From: Chloroflexi bacterium HGW-Chloroflexi-8
GTDB taxonomy: Bacteria; Chloroflexota; Anaerolineae; Anaerolineales; Anaerolineaceae
Reading direction: 5' to 3'
Length of the DNA stretch: 45,594 nucleotides
Assembly (NCBI GenBank): GCA_002841995.1
Contig: PHBS01000008.1
Coordinates: 1 to 45,594 of the forward strand
The notes beneath the pieces are model-generated. The model worked only from the letters and a program-made list of their open reading frames with translations. It was not told where the DNA came from and did not search any database. The stretch's first letter is position 1; each line of letters starts with the position of its first letter. Both the position numbers and the translations under genes were made by a program. Positions 23,787-40,628 of the stretch are shown here, in pieces.

Positions 23787-23802
23787 TAAGCGATAATGCC
23801 TA
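23787..23802. promoter_or_regulatory. 16-bp palindromic operator candidate, site D
   Basis: TAAGCG-ATAA-TGCCTA, about 120 bp upstream of the YHS start. Confidence 0.6.
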
Positions 23803-25527
23803 CTTTACTTGTAAGGTGATAATGGTCCCCAGACCTGGTGTAGAGAGGATGACTAACTTAGCATTGATAATTTCAGCCCGTTCTTGCAGGCCTAACAAAC
23901 CGAAATGACCCTTTTCTGGGAATTCAGCCGGATTGGCCGGAACAATGAATCCTTTTCCATCATCTCGAATCTGAATAAGGACTTCCGAATCGGTGAAATC
24001 CAGTTCCACCCAGGCGTGTTTTGCCTGGGCATGGCGGATCACATTATTGAGCGACTCTTGGACGATGCGATACACCGACATCGCCTTTTGTGCATCCAAA
24101 CCGCGCTCTTGACCCCTTACTTTATAGGCAATTGGGATGGTGGCGGCTTGTCCCATCTCCTGAACCAGCATTTCCAAAGAAGCGACCAATCCCAGGTCTT
24201 CAAGATAAATTGGGCGCAAACCGCGGATCATGCGGCGAAGATTAGTCATGGCTTGCTGGACCAATGTTTGCAGTTCACTCAGAGAGCCTTTTTGTGTCTC
24301 AGGGGAATTGATCGAGATCAAATGAAGGCGCTGGTTGAGTGCGATCAACGTCTGGATGGTGTCATCATGCAGTTCGCGTGCTAGGCTGCGTCTTTCATTT
24401 TCCACTCCAGCCGTGATCGCGCCTATATAAATGCGCAGGCTATGTTGTGCAGCCTTTAATTTATCTGCCATATCAATCAATTCAAATTGCAAATTACGGA
24501 TCTCTTCGATCCCGCCAACTTGCTGCCGAATTGCTTCGAAATTCCCCTCGGCGAGACCCGCGGCTTGTTTCTCTAATTTTTGCAGAGGTGTGACAATCCG
24601 GCGATAGCCAAACCAGATTGTGAAGATTGCCAACACAAAAATTGGGACGATGATCAAAGGGGCTGACTGAGTGGTCATCAAATAAGGGCTGGCAATATCC
24701 TCCCAGGCTTCTTCGATCACCAGTCCCCAACCAATCGGACGAATTGAGGTAAAGGCAACGACGTGTTCGCCTTGACTTCCTTGATAATAATTAATTCCAC
24801 TTTCGCCATTAAGAGCTTCGTTAATTCCGGGATGGGATCGGACGTACTCGTCCATTTTAATAGGCCCGGCACGAAAAAGAACTTCGTACTCCTTATTTGT
24901 GTTCGTTGGGCTAATAACCAACACTGTGATCTGGCTGGACCTTGCTAAATCCCCAACCGCGGTTTCTATCAACATTTGGGGAGAAAACGCCCCAAGAAGT
25001 ATTTCCCCCTCCCCCGTCTGTGTGATCAGAAAGATATAGGACTGGGTTGTTCCAGGTGGCTTGACCAGGTTTGAAAAGAATGGTGTTTTAGTGCTTTGCC
25101 CTGGGGGTTTGAATAGGCTGGGAATTAGGGCTGGGATGGTCGGCCAATCCATATTTGTTGTTGAGGCACGAATCAGGTAGCCATCCTTGGTATAGAGTGC
25201 AATCCCTCCCACAAATGTAGACGCGATTTCATCTGGCGTAAGGTGCAAAGAAGAAAAATCAGACTGATTTTCCATTTCCCGCGCGATCTGCTGGAAGGTG
25301 CTAGTCAGATGAGTTATTTCAAGTTCGATTGTGGAGGATGCGGCGCGAACGGTTCTTAGATCGCGATCTCCGACCAGGCTGCGCATGGCTTCATGATGCA
25401 GCGTCTGGCTTCCGAAGGCAACAACTAAGAGCAATACGGTCAAAGGCAAAATGGTAATCAAAATTAATTGGAGGGTAAACCCCCTCCAATTTGATTTCTT
25501 TACGGCAGCGTGACTGAATTCTGACAA
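23800..25527 (-). CDS. Sensor histidine kinase (HisKA_3/NarX-DegS type) with extracytoplasmic sensor
   Basis: LARELHDDTIQTLIALNQRL; VYRIVQESLNNVIRHAQAKHA; IRDDGKGF. Confidence 0.92.
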   Translation of the reverse strand: MSEFSHAAVKKSNWRGFTLQLILITILPLTVLLLVVAFGSQTLHHEAMRSLVGDRDLRTVRAASSTIELEITHLTSTFQQIAREMENQSDFSSLHLTPDEIASTFVGGIALYTKDGYLIRASTTNMDWPTIPALIPSLFKPPGQSTKTPFFSNLVKPPGTTQSYIFLITQTGEGEILLGAFSPQMLIETAVGDLARSSQITVLVISPTNTNKEYEVLFRAGPIKMDEYVRSHPGINEALNGESGINYYQGSQGEHVVAFTSIRPIGWGLVIEEAWEDIASPYLMTTQSAPLIIVPIFVLAIFTIWFGYRRIVTPLQKLEKQAAGLAEGNFEAIRQQVGGIEEIRNLQFELIDMADKLKAAQHSLRIYIGAITAGVENERRSLARELHDDTIQTLIALNQRLHLISINSPETQKGSLSELQTLVQQAMTNLRRMIRGLRPIYLEDLGLVASLEMLVQEMGQAATIPIAYKVRGQERGLDAQKAMSVYRIVQESLNNVIRHAQAKHAWVELDFTDSEVLIQIRDDGKGFIVPANPAEFPEKGHFGLLGLQERAEIINAKLVILSTPGLGTIITLQVK

Positions 25528-25559: not shown

Positions 25560-26282
25560 CTACGATCCCCTATCAGCGATATTAGCGGTAATCAGGCCAA
25601 GCGATACTGCTCGCATGACCGCTTCTGTACGACTTTCGGCGTTAAGTTTCTGGAAGATATTAGCCAGGTGATTTTGCACGGTCCGGTCACTGATTCCTAA
25701 CTGTACGGCGATTGCCTTATTGGTATATCCCTTTGCGGTCAGAGATAAAATTTGTAATTCTCGTTCCGTGAGGGGTTCGACAAGGGCTGTTTCATCTTGC
25801 TTGGCAAGTTTTACAAGCAATTTTTGGGTCAGGGCTACATCCAAAACGGATTTTCCGTGGAACACGTCGCGTATGCCCTCGATGATCTCACGCGGATCTG
25901 CGGTTTTTAGTATATAGCCATTCGCCCCGGAGCGAAGTACCGCTTGGACGTAGGGAATATCGTCGTATGCGGTCAACATCAAAACGCCAACTGGTAGCCG
26001 GTTAGCACGAATCCAACGGACAACTTCAATCCCGCTCATCACGGGCATTTGGATATCCAGAACAGCAACATCGGGATTGAATTGCTTCAATAATTCGCAA
26101 GCCTCCTGCCCATTGGAGGCTTGCGCGACGACTTGTAGATCCGGACTTAGCTCTAAAAATTTCCGAATCCCAGCACGTACCACGATGTGGTCGTCGGCCA
26201 GAAGTACGCGGATTATCCTGGGAAAATTTTGTGATAACATGGCGTTGATTATACACCTTTCATGGATACAACCGTGAAACAA
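25560..26282 (-). CDS. NarL/FixJ-family response regulator
   Basis: Receiver plus LuxR HTH (LTERELQILSLTAKGYTNKAIAVQLGISDRTVQNHLANIFQKL); adjacent to the kinase. Confidence 0.93.
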   Translation of the reverse strand: MFHGCIHERCIINAMLSQNFPRIIRVLLADDHIVVRAGIRKFLELSPDLQVVAQASNGQEACELLKQFNPDVAVLDIQMPVMSGIEVVRWIRANRLPVGVLMLTAYDDIPYVQAVLRSGANGYILKTADPREIIEGIRDVFHGKSVLDVALTQKLLVKLAKQDETALVEPLTERELQILSLTAKGYTNKAIAVQLGISDRTVQNHLANIFQKLNAESRTEAVMRAVSLGLITANIADRGS

Positions 26283-26337: not shown

Positions 26338-26976
26338 TCAGGTATTTTCTAGCTTTTTCCCTTGAAAAACCTTACCAGGTTGCCAGGGTGTACCTAACGC
26401 AGGCAACACAAAGCGATCTAGCCCCCACCATCCTGCTGTCTTCCACGCCAGAATGAGAAGAATAGAAAGGGTGAATAAAACTGGATTGGTGCTGGCGGAG
26501 CCGGCCATCATAAAATTCCAGTTCATGAATCCACCCAGGAAAGCTGCGATTCCGGTAAATAAGCCCAGGATTAATGCTACGCCGATCACGATTTCCCCGA
26601 TATAAACCAGTTTTGAGAACCAGGTGTAGGCTTGGGCGTCGATCATCGCTTGAAGAAAACCACGGTACCAATCGAAAGCGATCAATGGACGGGCCGGCGC
26701 ATCGGGGATAGCTACTGCGCGTTCCCAAAAACCTTTAAGGGCTTCACCTGTTTGAGTCCAGGCAGGGTTTGAGAGTTTACCAAGTCCAGAGGTCAACCAC
26801 GAATAACCGACATACAACCTTGCAATGACCCATAACCAGGCCCATTTTGGATTGTTAAAAAGACTGTTAGCAAAGGGTGGGTCACGAAAACCCACAGATG
26901 CAGAACCGCTTGTACTTGACATGTAATCCTCCTTGATCCATCTAAAATATGAGTAAGTCGATTTATATTTTATCAC
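26338..26976 (-). CDS. DoxX-family membrane protein
   Basis: ARLYVGYSWLTSGLGKL...LVYIGEIVIGVALILGLFTGIAAFLGGFMNWNFMMAG... Confidence 0.8.
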   Translation of the reverse strand: MIKYKSTYSYFRWIKEDYMSSTSGSASVGFRDPPFANSLFNNPKWAWLWVIARLYVGYSWLTSGLGKLSNPAWTQTGEALKGFWERAVAIPDAPARPLIAFDWYRGFLQAMIDAQAYTWFSKLVYIGEIVIGVALILGLFTGIAAFLGGFMNWNFMMAGSASTNPVLFTLSILLILAWKTAGWWGLDRFVLPALGTPWQPGKVFQGKKLENT

Positions 26977-27057: not shown

Positions 27058-28095
27058 TTAATTGGAGGGACCTCTGGGCTGTTCTTGTGAATGGAACGAG
27101 AAGGTATATAAGTAACTGATCACTGCTTGAATCTGTTCACTGGTAAAAATCGGCCCCCAATAAGGCATACCTGTACCCATTCCACCGCGGATGATCTTCC
27201 CTTCAAGCAGCGCTGGGCTTACGCCGAGAAGAACCTTCGGATCGGTAAAATCTGGCGGGCTGACCAGTCCTTCGCCAGTCGGCTGGTGGGTCACATCGCC
27301 GGAGGTGTGCAAACTCGGATCCCAGACCGGCAGGCCGCGCACCATGACCCCATCGCCTTTTCCACTTTCACCGTGACAAGCAGCGCAGTTTGTGGCATAC
27401 AATTCCTGTCCGCTCTTCAGTGCTTCAGGCGTGGCATGCTGCTGCCAGATCCAGGCGACGGCGTCCCATACATCATCGTCGCTCAATGAAGATAGGAATG
27501 TTTCAGCTCGTAATCTTAGCCAGACTTTAGCCGGGCTGTTTGAGAGATAAATATCTTTTTCTAGTGCATAGGCAGGCAACTGACTTGCGAACAATGCCCC
27601 CCGCCCAGCGGAAGCGGTCATACCGGGAGTAACTTCAGCAGTCTGTGGTGCATCGATATCGATTCCCAATTTTAGGAATAACGGCTGCGGGTCGGGCGGG
27701 ATTGGGTCGCCCTCTCCCGTAACCTCGATTGTCCCGCGCATGCGCCAATGGTTGGCGCCGCACCAGCGGCTACAATAAAAGGTGTACTTTCCGGGCTGGT
27801 CAAAGGTCAGGGTTGTGTCGGTGAATTCACCCGGAAGAATATCCAGAGCCGGATGGTCTGATCGACCAACCGCAAAACCGTGCACTACATCATCACTGGT
27901 GAGGCGCAAATGAATCGGCTGTCCAACTTTTGCCTGGATGGTATTGACGCTCCAGCCGCCGTTTTCTGGCATACGCGCGTGCAACTCAAGTGTTGCTGCC
28001 AGATCTTTGGACAGCCACCAGCCAACCAGCGGGACGCCGACCGCAGCCAGTACCAGGAGAATAACGATCCAACGGGCAAGTCCTTCTTTTTTCAT
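27058..28095 (-). CDS. CuA-domain (COX II-like) protein fused to cytochrome c
   Basis: CuA motif FYCSRWCGANHWRM (CxxxCxxxHxxM); haem c motif CAACH. Confidence 0.9.
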   Translation of the reverse strand: MKKEGLARWIVILLVLAAVGVPLVGWWLSKDLAATLELHARMPENGGWSVNTIQAKVGQPIHLRLTSDDVVHGFAVGRSDHPALDILPGEFTDTTLTFDQPGKYTFYCSRWCGANHWRMRGTIEVTGEGDPIPPDPQPLFLKLGIDIDAPQTAEVTPGMTASAGRGALFASQLPAYALEKDIYLSNSPAKVWLRLRAETFLSSLSDDDVWDAVAWIWQQHATPEALKSGQELYATNCAACHGESGKGDGVMVRGLPVWDPSLHTSGDVTHQPTGEGLVSPPDFTDPKVLLGVSPALLEGKIIRGGMGTGMPYWGPIFTSEQIQAVISYLYTFSFHSQEQPRGPSN

Positions 28096-28100
28096 CGGAT

Positions 28101-29429
28101 TTAACCTACCAGCAGCCAGAGCATGGCCAGCGTGAATAAACCTGAAAAGGCTATTAATGGTGCAGCCTGGCGAATGGTTTCACTAATGCGGCACGCGACC
28201 CGGCTGGACCAATAGAGTCCAACCATCAGAATAGCTACCTGTAAATTCAGGCTGAAGGAAGTGGCCTCTCCCACCCCGGCTGTCTTGGAAAGTCCAATCA
28301 AATTCCAGCCCCAACCAAGCGGATCTGAAACCGCCGGGAGGACGTAACCAAATTTGACGAAGGCAAATGAGATGGTAAACGCAATCCAGGCCATCAATCC
28401 GAGCGGCACGAGTACTTGGCTGTAATGTGCCAGTGATTGGCGCAGGTTCACATGGGTTGTACCGAGTCGATTAGCGGCCCAGGCAGCGCCGAGGTAAAGA
28501 CCCGGAAGAATCCCCAATGCAGTGAGCAGGAAGGATCCCGAAAACAGGAACCAGGCCGGGCTGCCGATAGCATACGCTGCCGATTTCAACTGTCCCCATG
28601 GTCCCAGAAAAACAGCCGAGTCGACCAGCGCGCTGGCAAGCATGACCAGTCCAAGGAAAGCTTCATCCAGACGGTGTTTCGTTTTCGGTCCCAGGTCACT
28701 GCCCCATGGGCGCAGGTTGACAGCGATATTATCCGAGGGGCAAACACGTAAACATTCCATGCAAAGACCGCAGTTGGCGCTTGATTTCAATGCCAGAGGG
28801 TATTGACCCCACGGGCAGGCGGTATAGCAGGTTTTTTCGCTGTGAGCAGCGCAGATATCAACGTCTTTGACGCGTAATTCCACCGGACCGGCCTGCGCAT
28901 AAAGACCGGTAAACCCGCCAATTGGGCACAGGTAGTTGCAAAAGGAGCGACGTTCGAAGACCAGGCTTAGGGCGAGTGCGAGAATCAGGATGAATAACAA
29001 AACGATCGCAGTGATTTTTGCTGAGGTCAGCGTCATTGCACCGAACAGCCCTATCAGCAAGAAACCACCAGCCTGCATCCAGGATCCTTTAAGGAATCTT
29101 GGCCAGCGTTTGCCTAGGCCAAAGCCCGTGCCACCGCGCGGTTGCAAGATACCACCGTTTTGCAGCCATTCGCCAGGCAATGGAATGGGGCAAATGCTGC
29201 ACCAGGAACGACCACCAAAAGGGATGAAGACGAGTTTAAGGGTTGTCCACCAGGCGATCCAAACAAATATGATGGCGAAATTATGGCTGCCCACCACTGA
29301 ACCCATCAATCCGGAGAGAATGGTAAAAACAAATCCTGCCAACGTGATAGCGCGGAGTAAGAATTGCGGCCATCGGCTACGCAACAGGGCGAGTGCCCTC
29401 GGAGAACGGGTAAGGTCCAGGCGGGTCAC
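28101..29429 (-). CDS. NapH/NosR-like membrane 4Fe-4S protein
   Basis: SWCSICPIPLPGEW, CNYLCPIGGF, CGLCMECLRVCP, multi-TM. Confidence 0.85.
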   Translation of the reverse strand: MTRLDLTRSPRALALLRSRWPQFLLRAITLAGFVFTILSGLMGSVVGSHNFAIIFVWIAWWTTLKLVFIPFGGRSWCSICPIPLPGEWLQNGGILQPRGGTGFGLGKRWPRFLKGSWMQAGGFLLIGLFGAMTLTSAKITAIVLLFILILALALSLVFERRSFCNYLCPIGGFTGLYAQAGPVELRVKDVDICAAHSEKTCYTACPWGQYPLALKSSANCGLCMECLRVCPSDNIAVNLRPWGSDLGPKTKHRLDEAFLGLVMLASALVDSAVFLGPWGQLKSAAYAIGSPAWFLFSGSFLLTALGILPGLYLGAAWAANRLGTTHVNLRQSLAHYSQVLVPLGLMAWIAFTISFAFVKFGYVLPAVSDPLGWGWNLIGLSKTAGVGEATSFSLNLQVAILMVGLYWSSRVACRISETIRQAAPLIAFSGLFTLAMLWLLVG

Positions 29430-29920
29430 ATCCTCCTCCTGGGAGCTTTTCGGAGCGAAACGAGCGCTGCCGCGATCGCCAGCAGTCCTAAGGCAATACC
29501 GCGAAAGAGAAGAAGATTTACTCCCACCTGCAGTTTGCCGATCATAAAGGGGTGCAGGTTACCGCAAGCCACCGAACAGCGAAAACGGAAGACCCCTGCT
29601 TTACCTGCGGTAAACGTGCCCGTTGCTGTTTGTCCCGGGTCGGCTTTCAATTCAAAGCTGTAGCCATCCAAGGAAAACCCGTGCACCACATCGGTCGAGA
29701 CCAATTCCACGGTCACACGGTCTCCGGGATTGATTTGGATCTCACCAGGTATGAACTGAAAGCTGCTAGCCTCGATGCGGATTAACCTGTCCTTTGGAAT
29801 TTGGACCGGTTGCGGCAGTGGGGCGAAGAAGATCAGCAGAGACATACCAATGAAAAGAAGCACCCAGCTCCTGCTCTTCCAATTCGTTTTTGCGACAATG
29901 TTGGACGGCAATGATTCCAT
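29426..29920 (-). CDS. CuA-type cupredoxin membrane protein
   Basis: VVHGFSLDGYSFELKADPGQ...FRFRCSVACGNLHPFMIG (CxxxCxxxHxxM). Confidence 0.85.
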   Translation of the reverse strand: MESLPSNIVAKTNWKSRSWVLLFIGMSLLIFFAPLPQPVQIPKDRLIRIEASSFQFIPGEIQINPGDRVTVELVSTDVVHGFSLDGYSFELKADPGQTATGTFTAGKAGVFRFRCSVACGNLHPFMIGKLQVGVNLLLFRGIALGLLAIAAALVSLRKAPRRRM

Positions 29921-29923
29921 CGG

Positions 29924-30400
29924 CTATTGAACGGGCGGCATGTTGGATGGACCGTATTGCGAATAGGTCTGATCGATAACCGTCCGAATCTCCTCGAGCG
30001 CTTTTCCATCTCGCGTCATTTTCATCACATCCTGGGCGATATCCACACAAATCGAGCAGCCCAGCGCGTGTTGATCAAAGACAACTTCGCCCGAAGATTT
30101 CACTTCCTTTACGTAACAAGAATAATTTGAAGTATGCCCTGCCGCGCCGCAGCCGCAATAGCAAGGTACATTTTTTAAAGCATCCGGATTCGCCACTGCA
30201 AATTGATAGCCTTCCTGAACGGTGACTGCCGCCTTTTGTACTTCAGCCGGCATATCGGACATGGGGGCCATTATTAAATCCTGACTCGCGTTCAAATTGC
30301 TGATGCTGCAGCCTGACAGGACAGAAATGAGAGGGATCAAGGCAACGAAAAGTAGTGACCAATGATGGCTTGAAAAGAAACGAGTTGAGGAATTTTTCAA
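29924..30400 (-). CDS. PCYCGC-motif lipoprotein
   Basis: Lipobox VLSGC; NVPCYCGCGAAGHTSNYSCYVKE...HALGCSICVDIAQD. Confidence 0.85.
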   Translation of the reverse strand: MKNSSTRFFSSHHWSLLFVALIPLISVLSGCSISNLNASQDLIMAPMSDMPAEVQKAAVTVQEGYQFAVANPDALKNVPCYCGCGAAGHTSNYSCYVKEVKSSGEVVFDQHALGCSICVDIAQDVMKMTRDGKALEEIRTVIDQTYSQYGPSNMPPVQ

Positions 30401-30613: not shown

Positions 30614-31108
30614 TCATGGAACCCAGTTCGAGAGCACGGTAAGGGTAAAGTCTTTTAGGTATGTGTCGTTGTTGGGAATATGAACTCGAAAGTCATGTTT
30701 CCCGCCCATATCGCCATGCATCATGAACTGCATCGAAAGGGTCGTCGTTTCACCAGGTTTGAGGGTCATCGAACCGATGACAGGGGCGGGAGGTCAACAT
30801 CCCTCCTTGACTTCGATGTAAGGAGCCTTGGAAAATATGAGGGGTTGGTCACCAACGTTAATGATTTCAAATGATACCTGAACGGTTTGGCCTAATTTGA
30901 CATCCCCTAAATCCACCTTCTCTTTGTCCACCTTAAGACTGGGACCGCCGGTAACCTCGGGGGTAAAAGATGCCGGTTTCTTTTGGAACGCAAAAAAGGC
31001 AGCAATGAGCAGGATCGCCGCAATTGCCAGCGCCATAATCAGCGGCAACTTTTTTTGTTTGCGCTGAACTTTCCGGTGTTTCGAAAAACCTCTATTTACT
31101 TTAGACAT
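30614..31108 (-). CDS. DUF1573-like membrane-anchored protein, candidate selenoprotein (TGA at 30794-30796)
   Basis: ...KVDLGDVKLGQTVQVSFEIINVGDQPLIFSKAPYIEVKEGC, then TGA, then PPAPVIGSMTLKPGETTTLSMQFMMHGDMGGKHDFRVHIPNNDTYLKDFTLTVLSNWVP*; the domain continues without frameshift. Confidence 0.85.
30765..30781 (-). promoter_or_regulatory. Putative bacterial SECIS hairpin
   Basis: Minus strand GTCATCG-GTT-CGATGAC, perfect 7-bp stem, GUU loop, stem begins 12 nt after the TGA. Confidence 0.7.
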
Positions 31109-31177
31109 TCAAATTTTGTTCCTTTAAAGTTGATATAACTCTGATGAAATTGTAAAAGTGGTGGAGACAAATCACAA

Positions 31178-31193: not shown

Positions 31194-31489
31194 TTCAAGC
31201 ATCAGCATTTTTACGCAGGTTCAATTGCCAGATGATATTTAAGAAAAGAATATTTTTGGAAAAGCCTGTTTATGCCAAACTTTATTTTCACAAAAAATAA
31301 AAAACAACACTTAACCCAACATGAAGTTTTCGATAAGATTTGGACCATCCTGGTGGTTTTGCGTTTGGCGATTATGATCGTCTACGGTATCGTGATTCAA
31401 ATCTTGCATCCCCCCTGGATTCCATTTGGATTCAACACAGACAACGCAAGATCGAAAAGCTATTGGGATTCGGCTTCGCTTGAATACTT

Positions 31490-32219
31490 TCTTCCATGCT
31501 GAGCTGTTTGTGCTCGGATTTTCAGTGATATTTATCGTCGGTTGGGGCAGTGCGACCACTGCTCTCAGACATGTGTTAGGAATCTATAAATCCATTTTAG
31601 GGCGAATCGGCTGGACGATCGTGATCTTGTTAGGGCTATTCACGCTCAAACTCATCAATCTTCCATGGTTGAATTATGATATGCGTGCTTACTGAAATCC
31701 CGGCAAGGGCGGGCCGATCCTTTCTTTTGTGATGATGGATGTTTCATCGCTGCTGGTTGGACGCCAAGCATCGGGACAACGCTTGGAGCCATACTCACCG
31801 TAGGAATGAGCCAGCAATCCGCGACTCAAGCTATGGTGCTGTCCAGTGGTTATGCTATCGGCTTGGGATATCCCTTCCTGGCCATTGGATTTGGGATGGA
31901 AAAAGCCATCCGGTTTAGGTCCGTTTTAGAAGGTATCAACGGTGATCGAGATCGTTAGCGCAACGCTCTTGATCCTCGTCAGATTGCTTATGGAGTTCGA
32001 TCGGATGACTCTCATTTCCTTCAAGGCGTTGCAGCGACGATATTTTATCGACTGGCCCCTGAGGGGCTCGATCATGTCAACTTTCATCATTGCTGTTTTC
32101 GCTGGTCTTCTGTCGTTTCTATCCCCCTGCGTTTTACCATTGGTGCCTGCCTACGTCGGATATTTGAGCGGACGGGTAGTCAGAGATCTGCCGGGAACGG
32201 TGAAGGAGACTCTTACTTA
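31490..32219 (+). pseudogene. Scrambled CcdA-like remnants (middle/C-term part followed by an N-term part)
   Basis: LFVLGFSVIFIVGWGSATTALRHVL..., GWTPSIGTTLGAIL in another frame, VIEIVSATLLILVRLLM, then MSTFIIAVFAGLLSFLSPCVLPLVPAYVGYLSG and a stop. Confidence 0.7.
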
Positions 32220-32362
32220 GAAGGATTTACAGGAGATATTAAATAATGCGAGTCTTCATCCGCCAGGATATTGCTTTTCAAATGCTTTCCCTTAGCCTGG
32301 GGGGGAGCCACCTGGCGGATATTCCTTAGTCGGTGGATGCTTATGCAAGCGTTAAATAAACT

Positions 32363-33200
32363 ATGAAACCAGATTTTTCCATTACAAACGGTGAATTGAA
32401 TGCACCGCGAAATATCGCGATCGGAATTGATGGCAGTATTTACGTTGTGGATAGCGGGAATTCAAGGATTGTAAAATACAACGCGAGGCGCGAGATGCTG
32501 TCATCCTGGGGTAACCGGATACCAGAGGGTCAGTTGCCGCCTGCAGAAGGAACATTTAATGAACCTTGGGGAATTGCATTGGACGATAGCGGTAATGTTC
32601 TGATCGCGGATACCTGGAACCACCGCATCCAGAAATTTGACCGGAAGGTAAGTTCTTGCTTGAGTGGGGGTAATCCGGCCTGGCAAGCGATGGGCTGAAT
32701 CGCTTATGGGGACCGCGCGGCATTGCGGTTGCCCGTGACGGTCGGGTCTATGTCACGGACACTGGTAATAAACGCGTAGTTGTTTTTTCTTCTGATGGCG
32801 AAGCCTTTTTTGAATTTGACTCTGCTGGCGATGCCCAGATGGATGAGCCGGTTGGTATCGCGGTCGGTCATGATGGGAATATTTATATTGCTGACACCTG
32901 AAACCTGAGCGTGGCGGTCTTTTCACCAGATGGAAAATTAGTCTCTAGCTTTATCGTCCAGGGTTGGGATAGTATTTCGTTGGACAATAAACCTTGCCTG
33001 ACGGTAGGGGCAGACAATCGCATCTATATGACCGACCCGGGGGGTTACCGGGTGCTTGTATTCTCACAGACTGGTGAACCTCTGGCCACCATTGGTCAGT
33101 ATGGACCAGAGGAAGGTTCCTTTGGATGACCAAATGGGTTAATTTTGAACCCGGACGGCAGCTTATGGATTGTAGACGCAGGCATAACCAGATTGTTAAG
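32363..33200 (+). pseudogene. NHL-repeat protein remnant
   Basis: NHL repeats (PRNIAIGIDGSIYVVDSGNSRIVKY; WGIALDDSGNVLIADTWNHRIQKF; PRGIAVARDGRVYVTDTGNKRVVVF) with frameshift, TAA at 32671 and TGA at Trp positions 32899 and 33127. Confidence 0.8.
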
Positions 33201-33559
33201 TACCAGCCAATCTTGCCTTAGCGATCCGATGTACTACAAAACTAGTAATATCCTCTCTTGGCAGTATGTCTCAGTCATCGGAATGATTGGCATTCTAACA
33301 TTATACCGGTTATCCGCCCCTGCCCAGGCAAGAAATGAGCTGAACAACGGTATTACACCAATACAGATTTCCCTTGTGGATGATTTGATTAACCTATCGA
33401 TTTGCCTGTGTTTGCTTTTTCTCCAAAGGTGGACTCGATAAATCGCCTTGCCGATTTGCATACATTTCGGCCAGAACGCCCAAGGTTTGCTGTACTTCAA
33501 TATATAGTGGAAAGTGAAGATAAGGCCTGGACGGTTGCAAAGAAATAAAATATTCAACC

Positions 33560-40016: not shown

Positions 40017-40628
40017 ATGATGAACAGAAGATCTCCGGATCATTCCATGGAAAAGCGATCCAATCCCATCTTTCGCTTTATGCGGATATTTGGAAATAAA
40101 AAACGGGATTATGTGATCCTGGGGATGGCTGGAATTGCTGTCTTGGCTTTCATATACTTCGGGATTCTCGGATTGAACCACGCAGGTCAAAAGCTTCAAT
40201 ATAGTCCCGCAGACATAGTGTATGGAAAAAAGATCCACGCCGTGCATGGAATGGATATCGACCGAAGCACCCAGGTTCTAGAAACATTCCCTGCGAATCT
40301 GAGTGAGGAACCGAAGATTCGCGTCTCTGAGACCTTCTTTGATTTCGGTGAAGTCAATTCTCATATTGTTTTGAGGCGCATATTTATCATTGCGAACACT
40401 GGTCAATCTGCATTAATCATCCAGCGCGCCTACACAACATGCGGCTGCACTGTGGCAGATCTCACGGCATCTGAGATTCCACCGGGCAAAGTTGTGTTAA
40501 TGACCCTCCAATTTGATCCGGGTTTTCATGAGATGCGCGGAACTACGGTCCGTCGTGGCATTCTGATCGAGACTAATGATCCTAATCATCCCATTCAGGA
40601 AATTTGGTTTCAGGCATCCGTTCGCTAA
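40017..40628 (+). CDS. DUF1573-domain protein
   Basis: VSETFFDFGEVNSHIVLRRIFIIANTGQSALIIQRAYTTCGCTVADL. Confidence 0.85.
   Translation: MMNRRSPDHSMEKRSNPIFRFMRIFGNKKRDYVILGMAGIAVLAFIYFGILGLNHAGQKLQYSPADIVYGKKIHAVHGMDIDRSTQVLETFPANLSEEPKIRVSETFFDFGEVNSHIVLRRIFIIANTGQSALIIQRAYTTCGCTVADLTASEIPPGKVVLMTLQFDPGFHEMRGTTVRRGILIETNDPNHPIQEIWFQASVR

Follow-up and report, generated by a model that had tools for sequence, protein, structure and literature searches.

A probable selenoprotein with a Cys-Sec pair in a DUF1573-like domain, encoded in a copper-protein operon of Chloroflexota

Does a short gene of Chloroflexi bacterium HGW-Chloroflexi-8 end at the TGA where ordinary annotation (table 11) ends it, or is this TGA read as selenocysteine (Sec), and what would a selenoprotein do among the copper proteins encoded next to it? 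The window, i.e. the whole stretch of DNA analysed (contig PHBS01000008.1), has a length of 45,594 nt. The gene lies on its minus strand and starts with an ATG at 31108. A preliminary description had placed the end of the frame called by rule after IEVKEGC, at the TGA at 30796–30794, and had noted that the same frame continues. Sequence checks found these coordinates exact and the frame past the TGA open for 59 codons, up to a second TGA at 30616–30614. The features of the gene are as follows.

31119–31125, minus strand: Shine-Dalgarno-like AAAGGAA 5′ of the ATG, recognised from sequence
30614–31108, minus strand: predicted selenoprotein gene, 164 residues with Sec at 105; N-terminal transmembrane anchor and HYDIN/DUF1573-like Ig domain
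30989–31042, minus strand: predicted N-terminal membrane helix, residues 23–40 (AlphaFold2 helix and hydrophobic stretch)
30794–30796, minus strand: in-frame TGA, codon 105, predicted to be read as Sec, between TGT (Cys104) and CCT (Pro106)
30765–30781, minus strand: bSECIS upper stem-loop GTCATCG-GTT-CGATGAC, 12 nt 3′ of the TGA, loop N1-G-U-N-N2
30689–30721, minus strand: near-invariant motif M130-H131-x2-M134-x-G136-x-H138-x-F140, candidate metal ligands

The TGA at codon 105 is singular in its surroundings. Both strands of the window together contain 1,801 TGA triplets; a comparable hairpin is found at 13, and at four the frame is open for ≥100 codons upstream and ≥59 codons downstream. 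Only the codon-105 TGA combines the hairpin with both open-frame properties. The 7-bp hairpin, previously singled out for its bSECIS-like spacing from the TGA, is present, conforms to published limits and covaries. Bacterial SECIS elements have a loop of 3–9 nt, an upper stem of 4–16 bp and a UGA-to-loop distance of 16–37 nt (PMC13188914 Fig. 2), together with a G within the first two loop positions and an MFE ≤ −7.5 kcal/mol (PMC13188914). The window hairpin satisfies every one of these limits, with its 7-bp stem, the loop GTT (or GGTTC), a spacing of 18–19 nt and an MFE of −10.7 kcal/mol. It follows the TGA in 46 of 46 family members. Across 42 distinct family sequences, 97.6% of the hairpin cells are paired, and two-sided compensatory changes occur in all seven of the seven pairs, amounting to 59 cells versus 17.6 in shuffles. 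Covariation becomes clearly poorer once the alignment is slid by 1–3 columns, and shuffled or slid controls stay below the real hairpin on all measures except the count of pair types. The loop N1-G-U-N-N2 is kept by most members, and N1:N2 shifts from G-C to A-U in locus L016. The Rfam model RF00031 (SECIS_1) gives no match for the window, and the same model is silent in all 14 control genomes, so that its silence here is uninformative.

Conservation of the codon extends over the whole family. About 85,000 species genomes were scanned with patterns from the window protein, and the 18 homologues retrieved all (18/18) carry TGA at the Sec codon; the gene occurs in about 22 of the 400 Chloroflexota genomes searched. 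Collectively, 46 members, the window included, have TGA at this place in 46 cases. They share 24–85% identity with the window protein, keep Cys104, Sec105 and Pro106 invariant and belong nearly all to Chloroflexota (L004 comes from a record labelled Clostridiales, possibly through misbinning). For the 59 downstream codons, dN/dS is ∼0.03–0.13 where computable, with similar values upstream; the codons 3′ of the TGA are under purifying selection, as are those 5′ of it. A true stop at codon 105, arising from a nonsense mutation or a sequencing error and leaving the downstream frame as a remnant, would agree with the fact that the ORF up to the TGA already covers about half of the Ig domain. This reading is very improbable given the purifying selection downstream, the covarying hairpin and the presence of the TGA in all 46 members from many assemblies; a sequencing error was likewise rejected.

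Homologues with Cys aligned at the TGA, which the preliminary description had proposed to look for and whose absence it had named as a ground for refutation, were not found: neither the 400 Chloroflexota genomes nor further genome-contig matches contain a Cys form at the Sec column. This does not refute the selenoprotein reading, because all homologues have TGA. The query protein had Cys at the Sec position, so that Cys forms were at least as easily detectable. With a profile as query, the search also recovered DUF1573 proteins of the ordinary CGC type, plus a single additional variant that bears a TGA. Distant open-frame matches in genomes G192, G128 and G184, considered as Cys forms, were rejected as ordinary CGC DUF1573 proteins, and G300 had no such open frame when checked. 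The viral contigs and plasmids searched contained no relative of the gene. The subfamily is apparently Sec-only in Chloroflexota. Because no Cys form was found, the usual search for Cys/Sec pairs would miss this gene. Among related sequences, L118:855 (G129:C226), a second DUF1573-like frame, has a TGA in frame (GGCT-U-MSEG) along with a strong hairpin whose loop is of the GGTTC type, and is perhaps another selenoprotein variant. In G112, a genome of one contig, the cluster is found at either contig end (L060 and L094); the second copy has a frameshift after the TGA, and this duplication is probably an assembly overlap.

Decoding of the UGA requires a machinery, and a search of the genome recovered all the components looked for. 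In the assembly that contains the window (3.95 Mb, completeness 93%), SelA scores 537.8 bits, SelB 357.2 bits and SelD 348.8 bits, and tRNASec, with anticodon TCA, 69.1 bits. Among carriers of the gene, tRNASec is present in 13 of 13 high-quality genomes tested; in the incomplete genomes G129 and G259, tRNASec was not found and SelB is absent among the matches listed. SelB occurs in 311 of 400 Chloroflexota genomes, and its frequency in the phylum makes its co-occurrence with the gene weak evidence, necessary rather than strong. The SelD gene of the host genome (L065, C46) has an in-frame TGA at the GUxxK motif, and SelD is probably a selenoprotein itself. In G177, ∼4 kb separate tRNASec from this family's Sec gene (C15 13168–13262 and 17125–17544).

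With the machinery present, the TGA kept, the hairpin covarying and the downstream codons under purifying selection, the earlier reading of the gene stands, and 30614–31108 is almost certainly a selenoprotein gene, as judged from sequence. SelB with tRNASec(UCA) would decode the UGA at codon 105 as Sec, directed by the bSECIS hairpin 12 nt downstream. That the TGA specifies another residue under a changed code would fit the open frame and nothing beyond it, and is scarcely credible, since TGA is an ordinary stop in family members (including at the Sec gene's own end), the other intact cluster genes are open under table 11, and SelA, SelB, SelD and a tRNASec with anticodon TCA are present.

The gene is followed on the minus strand by the genes below.

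29924–30400, minus strand: PCYCGC lipoprotein (PF13798; CYCXC/OS_HP4-like, below cut-off), the commonest partner
29426–29920, minus strand: membrane-bound CuA-type cupredoxin (CSVACGNLHPFM)
28101–29429, minus strand: NapH-like membrane polyferredoxin
27058–28095, minus strand: cupredoxin with the CuA motif CSRWCGANHWRM, joined to cytochrome c
26338–26976, minus strand: DoxX-like membrane protein, in a minority of loci
25560–26282, minus strand: NarL/LuxR-type response regulator, cluster end
23800–25527, minus strand: putative sensor kinase adjoining the response regulator, recognised from sequence and kept in 8 of 19 loci

A PCYCGC gene lies near the Sec gene in 34 of the 45 other loci and a CuA-motif protein in 27 of 45, with several loci truncated where contigs end. 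A 4-bp overlap joins the Sec gene to the gene for the cupredoxin–cytochrome c in L009. The pairing with PCYCGC is kept in the divergent loci L081, L084–L086, L088, L090 and L091, where the CuA gene was not detected, and the visible stretch of the divergent loci L083, L087, L089 and L093 shows no copper-protein neighbours. Taken jointly, the gene is very probably both a selenoprotein gene and a member of a copper-protein operon.

Run on the family alignment, AlphaFold2 gives a single helix at residues 23–40 and a confident Ig-like domain, with block pLDDT >90 across the domain. Among solved structures, the model best matches ASH/HYDIN/PapD-like domains and 2qsv, a protein from Porphyromonas; structure comparison excludes a thioredoxin fold in favour of the Ig-like one. 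The preliminary label ‘DUF1573-like’ is borne out by PF07610, passed at 35.5 bits versus a gathering score of 26.1, though the HYDIN-like Ig family PF22544 scores slightly higher (38.6 bits, above cut-off). In the M-H-x2-M-x-G-x-H motif, residues are conserved at ≥90% in one comparison and in 40–43 of 46 members in another; the motif is missing from L063. The N-terminal helix would hold the protein at the membrane facing outside, where Cys104-Sec105 could cycle between selenol and selenylsulfide as a redox couple or bind Cu(I) as a soft ligand; M130, H131, M134 and H138 may contribute to the Cu(I) binding.

The company of the gene suggests a function. The CuA cupredoxin and the cupredoxin–cytochrome c appear to form a route for electrons coming from the NapH-like polyferredoxin, and the Sec protein, with the PCYCGC lipoprotein, may keep these two copper proteins reduced or load them with copper. 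For a service of some form to the copper/CuA module the chances appear balanced, with Cu(I) delivery and the reduction of copper-site thiols about equally likely. The fuller proposal is tentative and somewhat doubtful: in a Sec-only Ig-fold subfamily, the Cys-Sec pair and the Met/His residues would carry Cu(I) to, or reduce, the CuA centres of an undescribed polyferredoxin–CuA–cytochrome c chain, making the protein a selenium-dependent copper-site assembly factor.

A general role in extracytoplasmic thiol–disulfide redox, as a reductant or in disulfide reshuffling fed by CcdA/TlpA and devoid of copper handling, is a possible if not a probable function of the selenoprotein. Adjacent Cys and Sec are able to form a selenylsulfide, as in thioredoxin reductase. 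DsbD_TM/CcdA-like and TlpA-like genes lie close upstream of the Sec gene in L001–L004 and L007, and CcdA/TlpA are absent from the visible stretch of most loci. In the window, a CcdA/DsbD_TM-like gene (31426–32214, plus strand) and a membrane-glycosyltransferase/NHL-repeat gene (32246–33201, plus strand) are decayed, each region showing several in-frame stops; their counterparts are intact in L001–L004 and L007. The decay of the CcdA-like gene beside an intact Sec gene implies that no dedicated CcdA relay is required in the window. CcmH is the top structural match of the PCYCGC partner (ranks 1 and 3, E-values of 2.1 and 3.1, not significant) and comes fifth in the sequence search (E-value of 0.41), a resemblance that is only suggestive but would accord with thiol redox. 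The Ig-like rather than thioredoxin fold argues the other way, and the Met/His motif would be left unexplained. In L111 and L119 (G192:C98), a single open frame joins a DUF1573 domain, a CcmH/PCYCGC-like stretch (CPCCG...CTC) and another DUF1573 domain, a fusion that may link both partner domains.

Binding of a soft metal or metalloid (Cu, Hg) by the Cys-Sec pair and the Met/His residues might instead serve defence, and not cofactor assembly. Some listed metal and organometal selenoproteins, e.g. MbdU, SaoL and HgcA (PMC13188914), have adjacent CU motifs as the window protein does, and Cu-transporting P-type ATPase and multicopper oxidase genes are found near several copies and elsewhere in the window. 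Defence is nevertheless unlikely: the steadiest neighbours are PCYCGC and the CuA, polyferredoxin and cytochrome genes, not efflux genes, and a single domain per membrane anchor offers little buffering capacity. Under the reading proposed here, that of service to the copper/CuA module, selenium would be linked to a conserved copper electron-transfer operon of Chloroflexota, to which the libraries searched assign no function. If this link is functional, a selenoprotein would take part in copper-site assembly or redox upkeep.

Several known systems offer points of comparison. By Pfam (104 bits), the neighbour at 29924–30400 belongs to the family of CYCXC/OS_HP4 (NF041379, PF13798), from which it differs by having Cys rather than Sec in the members read and by scoring 69.8 bits versus an NCBIfam cut-off of 90. 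Sco and PCuAC are small membrane-anchored or periplasmic proteins that act on CuA proteins by way of Cys or Met/His ligands. The likeness of the Sec protein to them would be an analogy of function only; the folds differ, that of the window protein being ASH/HYDIN-like, and the CxxxCP motif of Sco is missing. Known selenoproteins with adjacent CU are SaoL, HgcA, MbdU and KCU-star (PMC13188914); they resemble the window protein in the Cys-Sec adjacency, but their families and contexts are unrelated.

The closest comparison is with the DUF1573 selenoproteins already known, which have the motif UGC (PMC9312934, PMC13188914). OS_HP2 (NCBIfam NF041425, PF07610) and the window protein share the Ig-like DUF1573/HYDIN fold class and the placement of Sec in the loop that holds CGC in ordinary DUF1573 members. 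The window protein scores only 24.8 bits with NF041425, versus a curated cut-off of 100. It lacks CGC(T) and has EGCU-PP in its place, i.e. E-G-C-U-P-P where the known form reads U-G-C(-T), so that Cys and Sec are vicinal; by profile alignment, its Sec stands three residues further on. The window family has in addition the M-H-x2-M-x-G-x-H motif and apparently lacks a Cys form. The paralogue at 40017–40628 is an ordinary CGC-type DUF1573 protein with Cys (OS_HP2, 55.6 bits versus a cut-off of 100). It had been put forward as evidence that the family normally carries Cys in this region, and it does contain CGC, but it provides no Cys counterpart of the Sec position: profile alignment pairs Cys104 with the second Cys of its CGC and Sec105 with the Thr that comes next. 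This loop register comes from a single profile alignment, and ungapped alignment from the following PG puts Sec105 on the second Cys; under both registers, the predicted Sec differs in position from that of the known UGC form. A CU-PP motif in a DUF1573 domain is in none of the selenoprotein lists checked, and no report of one was found in the literature searched. Differing Sec positions are counted as separate subfamilies by a 2026 review (PMC13188914). On the evidence of its sequence, the window protein represents a new selenoprotein subfamily, with Sec predicted at a new place of a known domain.
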